Shown here piece by piece: positions 3,378 through 64,000 of a stretch of DNA of 64,000 nucleotides. The notes under the pieces were generated by a model. The model had not been told where the DNA came from. It did not search any database and was given only the letters and a program-made list of their open reading frames with translations. The first letter of the stretch is position 1. Every line of letters begins with the position of its first letter. A program made the translations under genes and the position numbers. Origin of the DNA: Basidiobolus meristosporus CBS 931.73 (lineage: Eukaryota; Basidiobolomycota; Basidiobolomycetes; Basidiobolales; Basidiobolaceae); NCBI GenBank assembly GCA_002104905.1, contig MCFE01000022.1, positions 171,240 to 235,239 on the forward strand. Reading direction: 5' to 3'.

Positions 3378-4918
3378 ATGAAGGTCTTGGCAGCTCATTC
3401 CCTTTTTCTTTTATCTGCTATCTCTTCCGTCCTTGGCTCGTTTATTCCTAGAAGCTACAATGTGGCTGATCAACTCCAGAAGGGCTCAGATTATTCAGGA
3501 GGAGGCAATCATGGTAATGGTGGCGGTGGCAATGGCAATTATGAAGGAAACGGCGGTGGCAACGGCAACGGAGCAAGCAATTATGGCGATATCCACCACA
3601 ACTATGGTGGTAATGGTGGTGGCAATGGTCTCTATGGTAGCGGTGGTGGAAACGGTGATAGATATGGTGGCGGTGGTGGTGGTAATGGCGGCTACGGGGG
3701 CAATGGTGGCGGTCATGGCGACTATGGTGGTGGTAGCGGCAACGGTAATGGCGGAGTAAATGGATACAGCGGCGGTAACGGTGGTGGAGGCAGTGGCTAT
3801 GGTGGCAACGGTGGTGGAGGTAACGGCTATGGAGGTAACGGTGGTGGTGGCAGCGGCTATGGTGGCAACGGAGGTGGTGGTAACGGCTATGCAGTACGGT
3901 GGTGGTGGCAGCGGCTATGGTGGCAACGGTGGTGGTGGTAACGGCTACGAGTGGTGGTGGAGGCGGCAGCGGCTATGGTGGCAATGGTGGTGGCGGCAAC
4001 GGCTATGGTGGCAATGGTGGTGGCGGCAACGGCTATGGTGGCAATGGTGGTGGCGGCAACGGCTATGGTGGCAATGGTGGTGGTGGCAGCGGCTATGGTG
4101 GCAATGGTGGTGGCGGCAGCGGCTATGGTGGCAATGGTGGTGGTGGCAACGGCTATGGTGGCAATGGTGGTGGCGGTAACGGCTATGGCGGAGGACATGG
4201 AGAGAAATATGGTAACGGTGGCGGCGGCGGCGTCAAAGGATACGGCGGAGGACATGGTGGTGGCCACGGATACGGTGGAGGACATGGCGATGGTCACCTC
4301 AAGTCGTACGATAGCAATGACTATGGTGGTCGCGGACGCGGTCACCATGATGGCTATGCTGGAAAGAAGGACTACGGTCACGGCGACGGCGAAGACTATG
4401 GCCATAAGAAGCATAAGGGGTATGGTGGCGGTGGAGATGGAAACGACAAATATGACGACGACTACTCCGGTGGTGGTGGCCACCGCAAAGGCCACAAGAA
4501 GCACAAGAACAAGGACTATGATGGCGATGGTGATGACTATGATGAATACAGAGGGAAGCATGGCAAGGGGCGTGGCCATAAATATGATGATGACGGTGAT
4601 GACCACAAAGACTACCACAAGCACCGCACCAACGCTGATGAAGAAACTGTTAGCGTTGTTGCTGAGCAGCCAGCGACGGAACTCCCGGAACAGCCAGTTG
4701 CCGAAAACGTTAGTGAAGCAACCGATGCTGTCAACTCCCAAACCACCTCAAATACCGTTGAAGAGATTGCCCAACCGGCGACCAATGGCGATGAGTGCAA
4801 TCAAATAGAAATCAATGGCTCACTTGCCGGTACTCCCGCCCATGGTGCAGTCTGCCTCGGCCAGCAGGTTCAGAAAACCCTCAACAATGTCTTGGATGTG
4901 AAGGGGCTTTTAGGATAA
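3378..4918 (+). CDS. Secreted glycine-rich repeat protein 1 (reading frame broken as assembled)
   Basis: Begins with a clear signal peptide (MKVLAAHSLFLLSAISSVLG), then FIPRSYNVADQL, a motif shared with the neighbouring paralogue. The body is a 30-bp tandem repeat encoding GYGGNGGGGN/S units to about 4180, then a Gly/His/Lys/Asp-rich segment. An acidic spacer and a conserved two-cysteine C-terminus follow (C-x~22-C, then AVCLG ... VLDVKGLLG). The N-terminal frame runs to about 3890. The glycine code then continues in the second frame to about 3950 and in the third to the stop at 4918. At each switch one repeat unit looks 2 nt short. No GT..AG intron restores frame. Assembly error in a GC-rich repeat or real decay are both possible. 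Likely a cell-wall or extracellular matrix protein, by inference. Confidence 0.75.
3600..4190 (+). repeat. 30-bp tandem repeat coding GYGGNGGGGN/S
   Basis: Imperfect tandem units of the pattern GGCTATGGTGGCAA(T/C)GG followed by TGGTGGCGGCA(A/G)C, most regular at 3780-4190. Two units near 3891-3900 and 3945-3960 are 28 instead of 30 nt, which produces the frame breaks in the gene. Confidence 0.8.
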
Positions 4919-56098: not shown

Positions 56099-57257
56099 AT
56101 GAAGTTTCTTCTAAATATCCTTGTAGTTACCTTGTCTATTTTCGGGGCACTCTCATTACCTACATCAGCGGGGGGAAAACAACTATCTAAAGAATCAATA
56201 AGCACCTTGTCCCGCCATGCTGTCTATGCAGATGCCGCTTACTGTCCTCGGCTCCTCGGAGAGGTGTGCAGTGCAAGGTACAGGAAAGAAGAAATGAGTT
56301 ACTTGTCAAAACAGCAATTGGGTTGGTTAGATGAGCTGAAAGTTATGCATCACTTTTACTTTAAGCCGGCAAAGCTTTACGCATATATTGGCTACTCCAA
56401 AAAGTACAAAGAAGTAGTTCTAGGCTTTAAAGGGTAGAGTGCACTTTACTCCCCAGCAATACTTCCAAGGTTGTTAATTTTATGCCCCATTTAGTACCTC
56501 GTTTACAAGCTTTAAAAGTGTGACGGTGAATGTTCGTCAGACTCTGGTAAAATACAAATATCCCGATCAAAAGAGCACAGGCAGCAGCAATTACATGGTG
56601 CATCAGGGATATTCTTCAGCCTTCTCCGGTCTTGCTAGGTCTACTCTGATTAAGCTGGAGCAACTAGCTAAGGCCAATATACCAGGGAGTGGCTACAAGT
56701 TGGTGATAGTTGGCCACTCGCAGGTAATTAACTGTATTCTTGTGTGCCGAGAGTATATGCTAACTGTATATTAGGGCGGTGCTGTAGCTAGTGTAGCTGC
56801 GATGGAAATCAAGAAAGCATATCAATTGCAAAAGCCTATTATCTCTAAGCTGCGTGCAAAAATACCAAGCTCCCATATTTTCCTCCACACGTTTGCCCAG
56901 CCTCGTATCGGAAACAAGGATTTTGCAAACCTAGTGCACAGTGTAATTGGAGTCAACAATGTAGCCAGAGTTACCAACTACTGGGACCTTGTTCCTAGCC
57001 TCCCTTCTTTGAAGGACTCCTATTTCCATCATCCAAATGAGATATTCATTACAGGTAAGCATAAGGTTGTGCGTTGCAAAGACGTGGCCAATGGCAAAGC
57101 CATTGAAGATGCATCATGCAGCGCAGCTGCTAGGGTATTGGCACTGTATATGTGCTCTGATTCTAATGCTGGTGTATGTTCTGAGGCTCTCCGTTCTCAG
57201 TTTGAGGAGCATAGACTCTCACAGTACGTCAAGTACCTAGGCGCAGCAGCTAACTGA
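56099..57257 (+). CDS. Secreted class 3 lipase
   Basis: Extracellular alpha/beta-hydrolase of the fungal triglyceride/feruloyl-esterase-like lipase family. Exons 56099-56433, 56495-56723, 56775-57257; 348 residues, canonical introns. Signal peptide MKFLLNILVVTLSIFGALSL. The oxyanion region FKGTSSF-type motif (VLGFKGTSF), nucleophile elbow GHSQGGA with Ser187, Asp259 in TNYWDLVPSLP, and His273 or 274 in YFHHPNEIF form the catalytic set. Many conserved Cys in the last third (CKD, CSAAA, CSDSNAGVC) suggest disulfides. It is the only intact-looking gene in the repeat-rich end and fits the pattern of secreted hydrolases placed in fungal subtelomeres. Confidence 0.93.
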
Positions 57258-57880: not shown

Positions 57881-58556
57881 TGCCAATTTTACTCCGTTTG
57901 AAAATCTAGTACCCTAACTGATTTTCCCTAACCCAAACATAACAAATCCCAGTTACAGTTTATTTGATCCCACCTCAGAATCTATTTTTAGCTATCACAC
58001 CTGATCTATTTTCAAATGGTCATCACGTTATCAACCTATCTGCCAAGCCTTCCCAGGTGATTAGTCATCTGAGATCTATCCAACCACTGTGCAGTTGCCA
58101 AGACATCAGTTGATTGATGATGTAATTTTCATTTATCTTATGCACCTATGAACACCCAAATTGATTTCCATCAATCCAGTCTCTTGGCGCTTACTAATTC
58201 AACTTGATCAGAAAAGTATAAATAAAGTGTACTGAACCTTTTGGTTTAGTGTGTGTCTCAATGAAATTAAGATTCTGTCTCAGCAAAAATAAGAATCCAA
58301 CAATTCCGTTCTAGTTTCTATCCAAGCCTAGTATATCTAGCACTCCAAGGAACACCAAGCCTAGCCTGCCTAGTAAACAAATATCATTGCATTTATAGCC
58401 AACCCAGCTATATCCAAGACCAATATTAGATCAGAATCTTTCTGCTAATATTTCCGCCACTCTCTGACAATTCTAAGATTCTGCACTTAATTGTTCCTTT
58501 GGTTCAGTTAAACCATTCAAGAGTTTTATTACACTTTCTCTTGGATACAACATTTT
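57881..58556 (+). repeat. Repeat E2, copy 3 (uninterrupted)
   Basis: Reference copy of E2, lacking the R1 insertion. Ends in CTCTTGGATACAACA, an LTR-like terminus, and is followed at 58593 by a gag-like ORF. Best explanation: 5' LTR of a retrotransposon cut short by chromosome breakage. Confidence 0.65.
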
Positions 58557-58592
58557 TTTTGTTGAATTCCATTACATTCAGCCGATTAGAAG

Positions 58593-58811
58593 ATGTCCTC
58601 AGCAGCAAGCAATCCAAACCTTTCCATGTTGGAAGAAGCCAGAAGAAATCAGGAAGAACTTACTGAACAGCTTGAAAACATCATGCTTGAAAGAAATACC
58701 ATGATGATTGAGCACTCAAAGCTTGCCAAAACAAGATCTGATAATCACCGTAGAGATGAACTCCTTGAAGTTATATCCGGTTACCAAGATGAAATTGGAA
58801 TAATTAAGGAA
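58593..58811 (+). CDS. Truncated gag-like coiled-coil ORF at an old chromosome end
   Basis: About 73 codons starting MSSAASNPNLSMLEEARRNQ and continuing as a charged, coiled-coil-like helix. It runs straight into telomere-like repeats at 58812 and stops there. Its place just after an LTR-like repeat suggests the start of a retrotransposon gag, but no zinc knuckle or other proof is left. Confidence 0.4.
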
Positions 58812-58841
58812 GGTTAGGGTTAGGATAGGCTCAGGGTAGGG
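58812..58841 (+). repeat. Internal degenerate telomeric tract
   Basis: GGTTAGGGTTAGG followed by ATAGGCTCAGGGTAGG: two good TTAGGG-type units then mutated ones, between the gag fragment and the 3' end of the inner LINE. Likely the remains of an earlier chromosome terminus. Confidence 0.7.
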
Positions 58842-60795
58842 GGGGAGACAGTCACCAACAGGTGAAATCTTTATTTCAGTTGAAACAAAGAAGCCAGTGC
58901 TACTGTTGTAGCTTTGATACAAGAGTGTGTAGCTGAGAGGAACTTGTAGGTAAGTTAATAAGAAGTGATGATAGTTCTTCAGTGCTCAAGACACTGTTCA
59001 GTGGGAAGGGGGGTAGCAAGAGAGGTAAGAATGACTTGTGAACAACATTAATGAGGGGAATGTGATAAGGATTGATATTCATCATAAAGGGAGTGTGCTG
59101 CTGCAGATATTGCTGCCAAAGGTCTGTCAAGTACTTCAGGTAGGCCAGCTTGGGTTTATCTGACTGCAGAATATAGTGAGCAAACTTCTTGACTTCAGGA
59201 TCTCCAAGTATAGTTCTCCAGCAGGAGTCAGGTGTTGTGTGGTGTGTTCTCTTCCAGGCCTTAATCAGTGGGTTGTTGCAGTTGTGAAGTCTGAGGTATA
59301 ATCTGGTTCTAAGGTAGAGAAGTCTGATCTTATAGGGCATAAACCCAAAAGCACCAAGAATAGCATGTCTGTAGGGGCATTCAGGCAAATGAGGCACCAA
59401 GGAGGTAATGCACCATACTGCAAACTTGTCAAGCTTAGTGCAGTCTCTAGAAGTAAGAGAGAGAAGTGGTAAGCCAAATTCCAGGACAGGGAAGACAAAC
59501 TGCTTGAGTAGAAGGAGGCAGCTGGGAGCTGAAGTTGTAGGAGGAGTAACAGCCAGTAGCTTGTGGAGTGCCTGTCTTGCCAGGATAATTCTCTTCTTCA
59601 GGTGTGCTCCAGAGTCTAGTCCAGTAGGAAGGAAAGGAAAGCCAAGATATGTAGCAGAAACCTGAGCAGGTAGAGTGGAGTTCTCCAAGTTGATGGGAGA
59701 GCCCAAAGGTACTGTCTTTGCAATGGAAAGCTGGAGATTGTTCTTCTGCAGATACTGGTGGATGGTCTGGGAGTCTTGTTGCACATTGGAGGAGGATATT
59801 CTGATGTCATCAGCAAAGAGAGTAACCAGGCAGTCAGCTGAGAGTCTTGGGAAATCATTCAGGAAGATGGCAAACAGTATAGGACCAAGCACAGAGCCTT
59901 GAACCACTCCATTAGGAACTGAGAACACAGCTGATTGCTCACTTGGATGCAGAATTCTTGCTTGTGGATCCAGAAACAGAGACCTGACAAGGAGGGTGAG
60001 AGAGGTACTGGAGAAGCATTGCAACTTGGACCAAAGCAGATTTCTGTCAACTGAATCAAAGGCCTTAGTAATATCAAACAGAACAGAGGGATACTTGCAC
60101 TGGAGAGAGTGATCTTGGCTAAGTATGACTGCATATTCCAAGGAGAGGCCAGGAACAAAGCCAAACTGTGCAGGATGAGACTTGAGGGAGTCAGAGTAGA
60201 GCTCCTGAGCAAGCAGAAGCTCAAACACCTTTCTGCAGGTGGGCAGCAGAGATATTGGCCTGTAGGAGCTAGGATCCAGGTGCTTTCCTTTACCCTTGTA
60301 CAGTGGCAGAACATTTGCAAAGGACCATTCCTCAGGAGTAGAAAGCTGGGCTGAGCATTGCTGAAACAGTGGAAGCAGAAGTGCAGACATGGCCTTGGTA
60401 CTAGTCTTCAGAAGCTCATAGGAGATTGTGTCCACACCTGGAGCAGTAGAGTTGGGAAGCCTCTTGAGCACATTATGGATTCTCCTTTGATCAAGTGCAA
60501 GTGGGATGGGCAGAGTCTTGAAGTCAGGATGAAAGCCAGGAGTTGAGTGCTGCTTTGTAGAGAAGAAGATGTTAGCCAGCTGTTCTGTTGAAGGTAACTT
60601 CCTGGAAGAGGGCCTCATTGCCCTGTAGAGTCTTGATACTGTTCTTGTTATAGAGTTGGAAGATTGCAGAGGCAAGGAACTCATAATATGATCCCAGAGC
60701 TGAGTATGCAGAGTGTGGTGAATTGCCTTGGAGTGGTGTATTGCTGTCAGGAGGAGTTTCTCTGTTTTTGGGTTAGGGAAACTCAGGTAGCTTTG
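58842..60795 (-). mobile_element. Telomeric APE-type LINE, inner copy, 5'-truncated
   Basis: Reads toward the centromere. Carries the reverse transcriptase and C-terminal part of ORF2; the frame is open from the truncation point to the stop at 58900. RT motifs: SYRPISLLPTCRKVFELLL, DITKAFDSVDR, PNGVVQGSVLGPILF, LVTLFADDIRIS, YLGFPFLPTG. The short 3' UTR holds AATAAA and ends in GACTGTCTCCCC, joined to telomeric repeats without a poly(A) tail. The endonuclease and everything upstream are missing; the 5' end joins TTTAGGGTTAGG at 60796. It is near-identical to the outer copy and keeps Tyr where that one has a stop. Confidence 0.9.
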
Positions 60796-60807
60796 TTTAG
60801 GGTTAGG
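60796..60807 (+). repeat. Two telomeric units between tandem LINE copies
   Basis: TTTAGGGTTAGG separates the truncated 5' end of the inner LINE from the 3' end of the outer LINE. It indicates that the outer copy inserted into, or was added onto, telomeric repeats capping the inner copy. Confidence 0.85.
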
Positions 60808-60865
60808 GGGGAGACAGTCACCAACAGGTGAAATCTTTATTTCAGTTGAAACAAAGAAGCCTGCG

Positions 60866-63634
60866 CTACTGTTGTAGCTTTGATACAAGAGTGTGTAGCT
60901 GAGGGGAATTTGTAGGTAAGTTAATAAGAAGTGATGATAGTTCTTCAGTGCTCAAGACACTGTTCAGTGGGAAGGGGGGTAGCAAGAGAGGTAAGAATGA
61001 CTTGTGAACAACATTAATGAGGGGAATGTGATAAGGATTGATATTCATCATAAAGGGAGTGTGCTGCTGCAGATATTGCTGCCAAAGGTCTGTCAAGTAC
61101 TTCAGGTAGGCCAGCTTGGGTTTATCTGACTGCAGAATATAGTGAGCAAACTTCTTGACTTCAGGATCTCCAAGTATAGTTCTCCAGCAGGAGTCAGGTG
61201 TTGTGTGGTGTGTTCTCTTCCAGGCCTTAATCAGTGGGTTGTTGCAGTTGTGAAGTCTGAGGTATAATCTGGTTCTAAGGTAGAGAAGTCTGATCTTATA
61301 GGGCATAAACCCAAAAGCACCAAGAATAGCATGTCTGTAGGGGCATTCAGGCAAATGAGGCACCAAGGAGGTAATGCACCATACTGCAAACTTGTCAAGC
61401 TTAGTGCAGTCTCTAGAAGTAAGAGAGAGAAGTGGTAAGCCAAATTCCAGGACAGGGAAGACAAACTGCTTGAGTAGAAGGAGGCAGCTGGGAGCTGAAG
61501 TTGTAGGAGGAGTAACAGCCAGTAGCTTGTGGAGTGCCTGTCTTGCCAGGATAATTCTCTTCTTCAGGTGTGCTCCAGAGTCTAGTCCAGTAGGAAGGAA
61601 AGGAAAGCCAAGATATGTAGCAGAAACCTGAGCAGGTAGAGTGGAGTTCTCCAAGTTGATGGGAGAGCCCAAAGGTACTGTCTTTGCAATGGAAAGCTGG
61701 AGATTGTTCTTCTGCAGTTACTGGTGGATGGTCTGGGAGTCTTGTTGCACATTGGAGGAGGATATTCTGATGTCATCAGCAAAGAGAGTAACCAGGCAGT
61801 CAGCTGAGAGTCTTGGGAAATCATTCAGGAAGATGGCAAACAGTATAGGACCAAGCACAGAGCCTTGAACCACTCCATTAGGAACTGAGAACACAGCTGA
61901 TTGCTCACTTGGATGCAGAATTCTTGCTTGTGGATCCAGAAACAGAGACCTGACAAGGAGGGTGAGAGAGGTACTGGAGAAGCATTGCAACTTGGACCAA
62001 AGCAGATTTCTGTCAACTGAATCAAAGGCCTTAGTAATATCAAACAGAACAGAGGGATACTTGCACTGGAGAGAGTGATCTTGGCTAAGTATGACTGCAT
62101 ATTCCAAGGAGAGGCCAGGAACAAAGCCAAACTGTGCAGGATGAAACTTGAGGGAGTCAGAGTAGAGCTCCTGAGCAAGCAGAAGCTCAAACACCTTTCT
62201 GCAGGTGGGTAGCAGAGATATTGGCCTGTAGGAGCTAGGATCCAGGTGCTTTCCTTTACCCTTGTACAGTGGCAGAACATTTGCAAAGGACCATTCCTCA
62301 GGAGTAGAAAGCTGGGCTGAGCATTGCTGAAACAGTGGAAGCAGAAGTGCAGACATGGCCTTGGTACTAGTCTTCAGAAGCTCATAGGAGATTGTGTCCA
62401 CACCTGGAGCAGTAGAGTTGGGAAGCCTCTTGAGCACATTATGGATTCTCCTTTGATCAAGTGCAAGTGGGATGGGCAGAGTCTTGAAGTCAGGATGAAA
62501 GCCAGGAGTTGAGTGCTGCTTTGTAGAGAAGAAGATGTTAGCCAGCTGTTCTGTTGAAGGTAACTTCCTGGAAGAGGGCCACATTGCCCTGTAGAGTCTT
62601 GATACTGTTCTTGTTATAGAGTTGGAAGATTGCAGAGGCAAGGAACTCATAATATGATCCCAGAGCTGAGTATGCAGAGTGTGGTGAATTGCCTTGGAGT
62701 GGTGTATTGCTGTCAGGAGGAGTTTCTCTGTTTTTGGGTTAGGGAAGCTCAGGTAGCTTTGTTGCAGGGCTGAAACAATGGATTCCCATTTTCTTGAGGT
62801 AACAGCAGTAGTCTTGCATGGCAGTGAGAGGGAGTCAGACACCAGAATCAGATGCTTCACAAAGAGCCAGGCAAAGTTGAGACCATCTGGCAGAGAAAGT
62901 AGCAAACTGGCAAGCTTCAAGTAGTTCCCAAAGTCTTTCTTCTGATTCTTGGTAGCTTTGTGGGTGAGCACAGTAAGTTTTGGCAGCTTCTTCTTCACAG
63001 CTGGTTGCATAGAAAGGGACCAGGCTGGGTGGTCAGAGGCTCTCAAGGATCCTAGCTCAGCTCCAGAGAATTGCTTAACTTCATTCACAAAGTAGAGGGC
63101 AGCAGCAGAAGGGCAGATCCAGTCAACACATCTTTTCTCAGATTGAGCACCTAGTGCTAGCAGGTGGCTTTCTCTCAGGAAGTTCAGTAGGAATGTAGAC
63201 CTTGGCTTCATTCTTGCAGTCAGAGTAGTCTTGTTCTCAGGATGGGGAATGTTGAGATCTCCAAGCAAGATAACAGGTGTTGATATAGATTGTTGGTATT
63301 GCTGAACCTTCTGGCATATAACTTGCACTTCCTGAAGGGCTAGACTTGGAGGCAGATAGCAGAGCACCAGACTGATAGTTGGCAACTGGAGAGCAGCACA
63401 GTAAGGGGAGTAAAGAGGAACACAGAGCTGAGGAGTATTGATGGTAGAAGAGATGAAGCAGATAGAGGAGGTATTCTTTGTTCTAGGAGTAGAAAAGCAA
63501 TATAGATTAGTCAAAAGTATAGAGGGTAGCTGGACATCAATCAAACACAGGAGGGAAAATCTTGAAAGAAGTCTCTCTAGAGTTGGTCTTGATGGCTGTA
63601 TGCTGTTGCAGTTAAGCAACAGAACTTCAGGTAG
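60866..63634 (-). CDS. LINE ORF2: APE endonuclease and reverse transcriptase, one nonsense codon
   Basis: About 920 codons. The N-terminal 230 residues have APE endonuclease motifs: LLNCNSIQ, VILLGDLNIPHPE, CVDWICPSA and RASDHPAWSL. The reverse transcriptase follows with SYRPISLL, DITKAFDSV, QGSVLGPILF, FADD and YLGFPFLP. No RNase H domain or CCHC knuckle is evident. At 61718-61720 a TAA replaces the Tyr codon of the inner copy (HQ-stop against HQYLQK), so this copy is inactive as assembled. There is no ATG near the start: the frame begins straight after the TGA that ends the upstream ORF. Confidence 0.9.
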
Positions 63635-63775
63635 TCAGGCAGAGGTTGTAGCTTCTTCAGAGGCAGCATTAACAATGTGACCTGCAGAGTCCCAGAGCTC
63701 TTCAAATGGTGCATCACTTAAGTCAGCAAGGAGGGAAATGGCATGGTTCTTGAGGAAGTATGCCACATCATAGGA
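63635..63775 (-). CDS. LINE ORF1, C-terminal fragment
   Basis: 46 codons in the same frame as ORF2, visible as SYDVAYFLKNHAISLLADLS then DAPFEELWDSAGHIV, ending TSA and a TGA stop. The stop is followed by CTA and then ORF2 without a new ATG. Upstream the fragment is cut by the telomere. The similarity to known ORF1 proteins cannot be judged from so short a piece, and it could instead be an N-terminal extension of ORF2. Confidence 0.5.
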   Translation of the reverse strand, partial: SYDVAYFLKNHAISLLADLSDAPFEELWDSAGHIVNAASEEATTSA

Positions 63776-64000
63776 GGGTTAGGGTTAGGGTTAGGGTTAG
63801 GGTTAGGGTTAGGGTTAGGGTTAGGGTTAGGGTTAGGGTTAGGGTTAGGGTTAGGGTTAGGGTTAGGGTTAGGGTTAGGGTTAGGGTTAGGGTTAGGGTT
63901 AGGGTTAGGGTTAGGGTTAGGGTTAGGGTTAGGGTTAGGGTTAGGGTTAGGGTTAGGGTTAGGGTTAGGGTTAGGGTTAGGGTTAGGTTAGGGTTAGGGT
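63776..64000 (+). repeat. Terminal telomere repeat (TTAGGG)n
   Basis: About 37 units of TTAGGG with the G-rich strand running 5' to 3' toward the window end, as at a right chromosome end. One unit near 63984 is TTAGG (one G short). The tract runs off the end of the window. Confidence 0.98.

Follow-up and report, generated by a model that had tools for sequence, protein, structure and literature searches.

The chromosome ends of the fungus Basidiobolus meristosporus CBS 931.73 carry arrays of retroelements that point their 3' ends toward the centromere and rest on telomeric stubs, mostly of two whole TTAGGG units or fewer. The explanation that we favor, with modest confidence, is that a guild of end-specific retroelements is added to very short telomeres by priming at the chromosome 3' end, with telomerase re-capping the product. 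The window, i.e., the whole 64,000-nt stretch analyzed (G000:C447:171240-235239), lies at the right end of its contig (235,239 bp), one of 1311 in an assembly that totals 89,006,234 bases.

A LINE pair on telomeric stubs

Two near-identical LINE copies lie head to tail on the minus strand, their 3' ends (58846 and 60812) on the centromere side, as the preliminary description had it. The copies are spaced 1966 bp apart and share 99.5% identity over 1952 bp, with 9 mismatches. Copy 1 (58846..60797) is 5'-truncated; its ORF2 part, which includes a reverse transcriptase (RT) domain (59635..60273, minus strand; Pfam RVT_1, PF00078, E 9e-25), is open up to a stop at 58900-58902. Copy 2 (60812..63775) comprises the end of ORF1 (63638..63775, minus strand; 47 aa, 83% identical to P0121), ORF2 and the 3' UTR. 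In copy 2, ORF1 and ORF2 share one frame and are separated by a TGA (63635..63637, minus strand) followed by CTA; a predicted APE-type endonuclease domain (63002..63634, minus strand) displays the motifs NCNS, GDLN, CVDW and SDH, and a premature stop at 61718-61720 interrupts ORF2. The sense 3' end of both copies is GACTGTCTCCCC, and their 3' tails contain a hairpin, TCACC-TGTT-GGTGA in copy 1 (58852..58865, minus strand), at 60818-60831 in copy 2.

The LINE 3' ends are joined to telomeric units rather than to poly(A). Inward of copy 2, TTTAGGGTTAGGGGGG forms a two-unit stub (60798..60811, plus strand) that separates the copies; inward of copy 1, GTTAGGGTTAGGATAGGCTCAGGGTAGGGGGGG is a decayed telomeric tract that occupies 58813..58845 (plus strand; C447:230085), between the LINE and a part of a dispersed repeat (58062..58812, plus strand) that stops at 58812. 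On the outer side, a terminal (TTAGGG)n array runs to the contig end (63776..64000, plus strand; about 225 nt, 37.8 copies by Tandem Repeats Finder). The arrangement set out in the preliminary description, including the telomeric junctions and the telomeric units between the copies, holds overall and needs three corrections: both copies are 5'-truncated, ORF2 of copy 2 has a stop and the stub of copy 1 is degenerate. Its term "telomere-targeted" is right as to place; as to process, insertion into telomeres and addition to very short ends are competing readings.

The array probably stands on a healed chromosome break within the dispersed repeat. A search with 58300-58840 gave 781 candidates; the 40 that were scored were the window itself and 39 others. 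The matches of these others stop at base 513 of the query in 38 cases and at base 511 in one, i.e., at 58812 or 58810. The segment 58300-58812 belongs to the repeat, and the telomeric tract starts where the matches of the other copies end. From 58593, a frame that stays open for about 73 codons enters the telomeric tract and ends inside it. The repeat part at 58062..58812 is perhaps the start of an LTR retrotransposon. The alternative to a healed break is that the repeat naturally ends here. At another locus (L075), a putatively copia-like frame likewise enters a telomeric tract.

The LINE and its proteins

ORF2 encodes an endonuclease N-terminal to the RT, the layout of APE-type LINEs. The APE assignment, originally based on GDLN and SDH, is borne out by both motifs, which are in frame in ORF2, and supported by the predicted fold, which is close to R1Bm, TRAS1 and APE1; Pfam agrees weakly, with 21.9 bits for the window copy against a cut-off of 27.4 and 27.5 bits for its relative P0007. 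These three references score equally in the fold comparison. Membership in the CRE class of MoTeR and FoTeR was considered and rejected: an APE fold is predicted, and the ORF2 proteins scanned have no Pfam domain 3' of the RT, a weak test for a restriction-like endonuclease. The closest organism-named matches to the RT part are K493DRAFT_353650 and K493DRAFT_348252 of B. meristosporus CBS 931.73, and the nearest non-Basidiobolus RTs among the matches listed are 26-36% identical and carry uninformative names; sequence matches in the PDB are L1, R2 and prokaryotic RTs. Given these matches and the tied endonuclease folds, no RT clade is claimed. Pairwise pN/pS of ORF2 parts, computed with copies projected on one copy and with gaps and stop codons skipped, is 0.43 for 35 copies, 5 of which carry stops, and 0.46 for 45 copies, of which 6 do.

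A longer copy, at locus L091, has ORF1 as well as a 5' UTR that includes two tandem units of about 100 bp. The same 5' UTR carries an internal AACCCTAACCCTAA (L091 ~4300-4600); this motif and the tandem units could serve as a promoter or be bound by telomere proteins. ORF1 features a zinc-ribbon-like motif, a coiled coil and a segment that may be called RRM-like purely from its predicted order of strands and helices; its predicted fold has a mean pLDDT of 58 and no Foldseek match at E <= 0.001. Named relatives of ORF1 occur in B. ranarum. The ORF1/ORF2 border has 151 genomic matches; all 100 among the matches listed agree at each of 28 bases, the TGA included. The 3' UTR ends in the small hairpin and a C-run, and the hairpin stem hardly varies.

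Junctions across the genome

The 21-base LINE 3' end has 939 genomic matches with up to two mismatches (848 + 91), against none for the reversed 21-base control pattern. Its strand bias resembles that of the telomere repeat itself: TTAGGG runs lie almost all on the plus strand (7428 : 81), contigs being apparently oriented telomere-right by an assembly convention. Constant 3' ends combined with 5' truncation are evident from these 939 3' ends and the 151 matches to the ORF1/ORF2 border 2.8 kb away, two counts made with different patterns and mismatch limits.

Among the junctions examined, the copies are not scattered mostly over unrelated internal sites. Of 50 junctions on contigs longer than 40 kb, 48 are subterminal, with the contig end faced by the 5' side of the element no more than 20 kb away, at a median distance of 4.2 kb; this set leaves aside 17 junctions on shorter contigs and includes four contigs with strand assigned by hand. 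The two exceptions are on C558, with an array in mid-contig, and on C726, with a copy that is near an end and inverted. On C558, a contig of 218 kb, the mid-contig array (L007, G000:C558:95984-99485) holds at least three elements in a single orientation, a gag-only element and two copies of LINE-A, and may reflect a fusion, a misjoin or the internalization of a chromosome end.

Stub lengths were tabulated for 67 distinct junctions, a non-random set. Its loci are the 30 top-scoring BLAST matches plus the 30 pattern places that come first when contigs are taken in order, and its tails match AGACAGTCAC exactly and lie at least 80 nt from the locus edge. By exact count, 0, 1, 2, 3 and 7 whole units are found at 13, 39, 13, 1 and 1 junctions; two units or fewer are thus present at 65 of 67. 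Because the exact count ends at the first mismatch, decayed tracts, e.g., that of copy 1 in the window, score short; with decayed units counted, 59 junctions still have at most two. The lenient count, which allows mismatches and also catches chance matches, assigns three or more units to the other 8. The distribution of exact stub lengths is about even between 1 and 9 nt and drops beyond, and truncation points and inner flanks differ widely among the 67 junctions. In the whole genome, at least 12 3' ends with G-runs of up to 7 have three or more exact units, and 532 tails have TTAGGG within six bases, a lower bound relative to the 939 matches in that it requires an exact tail where the latter allow two mismatches.

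Among 20 stubs that begin exactly at TTA, 14 have a preceding C (p 0.001 against 1/3, a comparison chosen post hoc), and some terminal arrays also begin with C before TTA; this fits seeding by telomerase. An RNA-templated origin, in which the tail of the LINE RNA itself supplies TTAGGG, was considered as well. G-runs of 9-10 at the 3' ends are more often without a preceding TTA (4/7, versus 9/60 of the others), as would result from direct joining of a C-rich RNA tail to an end that is not telomeric. The shortest copy found, a ten-base remnant (AGACAGTCAC) between two telomeric stubs at L064 ~2089-2120, may represent an aborted or an eroded addition.

Terminal arrays and telomerase

At the 11 telomere ends examined, the arrays are 138-261 nt long, apart from that of C468, which irregular units split into 108 and 99 nt. 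The outermost recognized LINE has a visible 3' end at 8 of these ends, and the stub beneath it contains at most two units in all eight by exact count and, by the lenient count, in the seven other than C398. Stubs this short suggest that addition takes place on ends that are very short or have just been seeded. A TERT RNA-binding domain (PF12009) scores above cut-off in two adjacent stretches of C880 (40.5 and 34.7 bits), the second of which has one TAG, perhaps at an intron border. A telomerase gene is therefore present, and, as far as this gene fragment allows, the array system does not stand in for a lost one.

Companion elements with the same tail

At the loci examined, several families end in one tail, in sense AGATTTCACC-N4..7-GGTGACT..C-run, and the tail hairpin is common to the LINE, SINE and gag-only families. 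The SINE is about 530 bp long and has the features of its class: pol III boxes A (TAGCCTTGTGG, at 15) and B (GGTTCAAATC, at 58) in its head, a constant 5' end, a LINE-like tail (about 45 bp, about 87% like that of the LINE) and no ORF of 130 aa. ARAGORN and Rfam gave no match for a parent tRNA in L091. There are 435 exact SINE tails, most of which follow TTAGGG (379 matches, double counts included: at least 4 of 100 listed). SINE units are often tandem at a near-constant spacing of about 528 bp, and the constant SINE 5' end precedes 10 of the 67 LINE stubs. One contig, C424 (312,558 bp), has a telomere and SINE copies at both ends, in mirror orientation.

The gag-only elements C1 and C2 have one ORF, of 242 or 266 aa, which encodes a leucine-rich coil and a C-terminal part that is 26-34% identical to the ORF1 relatives. 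These ORFs come within about 100 nt of the tail, with no RT in between. For C1, 496 candidates were found, and 42 of the 47 listed are nearly full-length. Judging by pairwise pN/pS of 0.21 for 6 copies and 0.23 for 5, one of which has an in-frame stop, the gag-only ORFs are under purifying selection; a named relative of their protein exists in B. ranarum. A second LINE family is present at L009, L016, L028, L029 and L061, and P0007 matches it at 46-71%. The data fit a single RT machinery that serves several RNAs, some of which it would mobilize in trans.

How the arrays may grow

The favored reading takes as its substrate a chromosome end with a telomere that is down to about two units or was freshly seeded on a break. 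The C-rich 3' end of the LINE RNA would pair with the G-rich 3' overhang, and the RT would extend the overhang outward, laying down a LINE, usually 5'-truncated, antisense to the G strand. As the 3' end of the G strand faces outward and the LINE lies antisense to this strand, the first-strand cDNA would be a direct extension of ...TTAGGG-3'. The 3' end of the cDNA would become the new chromosome tip, to which telomerase would add TTAGGG, and repeated rounds would yield arrays of truncated copies with mostly one or two units between them. The gag-only elements, the SINE and probably the second LINE family would use the same machinery through the shared 3' tail. Some observations count against end priming: among the lenient stubs of three or more units, one (C398) lies under an outermost copy, and the copies on C558 and C726 lack the expected combination of terminal position and outward 5' side.

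The main rival, which we regard as rather unlikely, holds that an endonuclease nicks telomeric arrays of normal length and the LINE inserts there, similarly to MoTeR and SART; inner tracts of three or more units then soon break, while those of two or fewer persist. Such loss is documented in Pyricularia, where TTAGGG tracts of three or more units are reported to break and those of up to two to be stable (PMC7367193), and a stability threshold of this kind would also give the observed stub lengths, flat up to two units and then dropping. The retention of an APE domain with most of its catalytic motifs, which pure end priming would not need, and the copies that do have three or more units are in line with insertion as well. 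Yet the outermost, presumably youngest copies already have short stubs; FoTeR 3' ends typically have 3-7 units (PMC12857005); highly unstable MoTeR ends mostly have much longer inner tracts (PMC7367193); and SART1 is reported to need three TTAGG units and to avoid the first two tracts (PMC7265360).

Copying of subtelomeric arrays between ends by break-induced replication, with retrotransposition rare or past, appears improbable. The regular tandem SINE units do resemble tandem amplification, and contig C2 has two successive 120-bp LINE remnants with near-identical truncation points; copying between ends is, on the other hand, at odds with the diverse truncation points and inner flanks of the 67 junctions, with several element families that share a single 3' tail and with purifying selection on the gag-only ORFs. 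An assembly artefact of repetitive contig ends is barely conceivable, even though the assembly is fragmented and its telomere runs are oddly strand-biased: one junction grammar recurs on many contigs with different inner flanks, C424 is both-ended, and both ORF1 and the gag-only protein have relatives in B. ranarum. Since identical junctions recur on many contigs, the window array is not a misassembly of one contig.

Beyond end priming itself, the data tentatively suggest a hybrid telomere, in which telomerase and the guild, i.e., two APE LINE families, the selected gag-only elements and the SINE, alternate at one 3' end. A shrunken or broken end would first receive one or two units from telomerase; the LINE enzyme would prime there with any RNA that has the shared tail, and telomerase would cap the product.

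Relation to known telomeric retroelements

Many copies of the Drosophila telomeric elements are 5'-truncated, like those in the Basidiobolus arrays. HeT-A, TART and TAHRE also form 3'-inward arrays, are added to chromosome ends and broken ends and include gag-only members beside RT-bearing ones (PMC4700185; PMC10088271). In Basidiobolus, arrays at ends, 3'-inward orientation and a gag-only member are all found. By contrast, Drosophila lacks telomerase and TTAGGG repeats and has poly(A) junctions, whereas Basidiobolus has TERT, with PF12009 over cut-off, TTAGGG arrays, telomeric stubs and a SINE; a system of the HeT-A/TART kind, which lacks telomerase and its repeats, was rejected on this ground.

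MoTeR2 of Pyricularia is a non-autonomous partner that shares a tail with MoTeR1, as the Basidiobolus companions share theirs with the LINE. MoTeR1/2 and FoTeR of Fusarium resemble the Basidiobolus elements in being fungal and telomeric, with 5' ends tipward, truncated copies and interstitial TTAGGG; they differ in their restriction-like endonuclease and, in FoTeR, 3-7 units, where Basidiobolus has an APE endonuclease, two ORFs and mostly 0-2 units. The R1-clade TRAS and SART of insects are similar in their APE endonuclease, two ORFs, telomerase-type repeats alongside and a required 3' UTR. Their telomeric copies are reportedly all full-length (PMC4700185); they lie within TTAGG arrays and have poly(A), while the Basidiobolus LINEs are mostly truncated, stand on stubs and are free of poly(A). 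The TRAS/SART pattern of full-length, poly(A)-bearing insertions in longer arrays was rejected, given two units or fewer at 65 (exact count) or 59 (lenient count) of 67 junctions, the lack of poly(A) and the mostly truncated copies.

Zepp of Chlorella and Tx1-1_ACar of Anolis are both APE-type, and Zepp occurs in stacked, truncated nested copies; both differ from the Basidiobolus LINE in RT type and in their poly(A) ends, and we know of no shared-tail SINE or gag-only partner for either. SINEs of the UnaSINE/UnaL2 type have a tRNA-like head with A and B boxes, a LINE-like 3' hairpin and terminal short repeats, as the Basidiobolus SINE does; the terminal repeat of the latter is telomeric, and its copies lie in chromosome-end arrays. 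If the hybrid reading is true, this would be, to our knowledge, the first chromosome-end SINE. Zepp and Tx1-1_ACar share with the Basidiobolus LINE a location at telomeres, as noted in a 2023 research paper, PMC10088271, whose background list names SART/TRAS, GilM/GilT, Zepp1, MoTeR1, Tx1-1_ACar and Athena and, in the portion available, includes no fungal APE-type case and no SINE. Among the matches listed from the open-licence literature, titles and abstract beginnings report no telomeric LINE or SINE in Basidiobolus and no fungal APE-type telomeric LINE, and the accessible part of PMC7466969 contains neither "telomer" nor "transposable". Telomeric retroelements are known as a kind; we could not find in print the combination of a fungal APE LINE, stub junctions, gag-only elements, a SINE and telomerase.

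Telomeric retroelements are the main natural evidence on the relation between telomerase and retrotransposons. Both seem active on one end here, in a fungus that is far from insects and differs from the CRE-type fungal cases, and the gag-only element apparently recurs as in Drosophila by convergence. Should the hybrid reading hold, Basidiobolus would parallel, among fungi, the end system of Drosophila, with telomerase kept. The guild lends itself to experiments on end priming of RNA on TTAGGG, on the movement of a SINE by a telomeric LINE and on rescue when telomerase fails. End repair may also account for subterminal arrays and for short interstitial tracts of telomere repeats in early-diverging fungi.

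Other features of the window

Pieces of a class 3 lipase gene, apparently split by introns, lie near the chromosome end at 56099-57257, with Lipase_3 (PF01764) within 56802-57257. Far inward, at 3614-4188, a G+C-rich tandem repeat with 15/30-bp units would encode a Gly-rich sequence.
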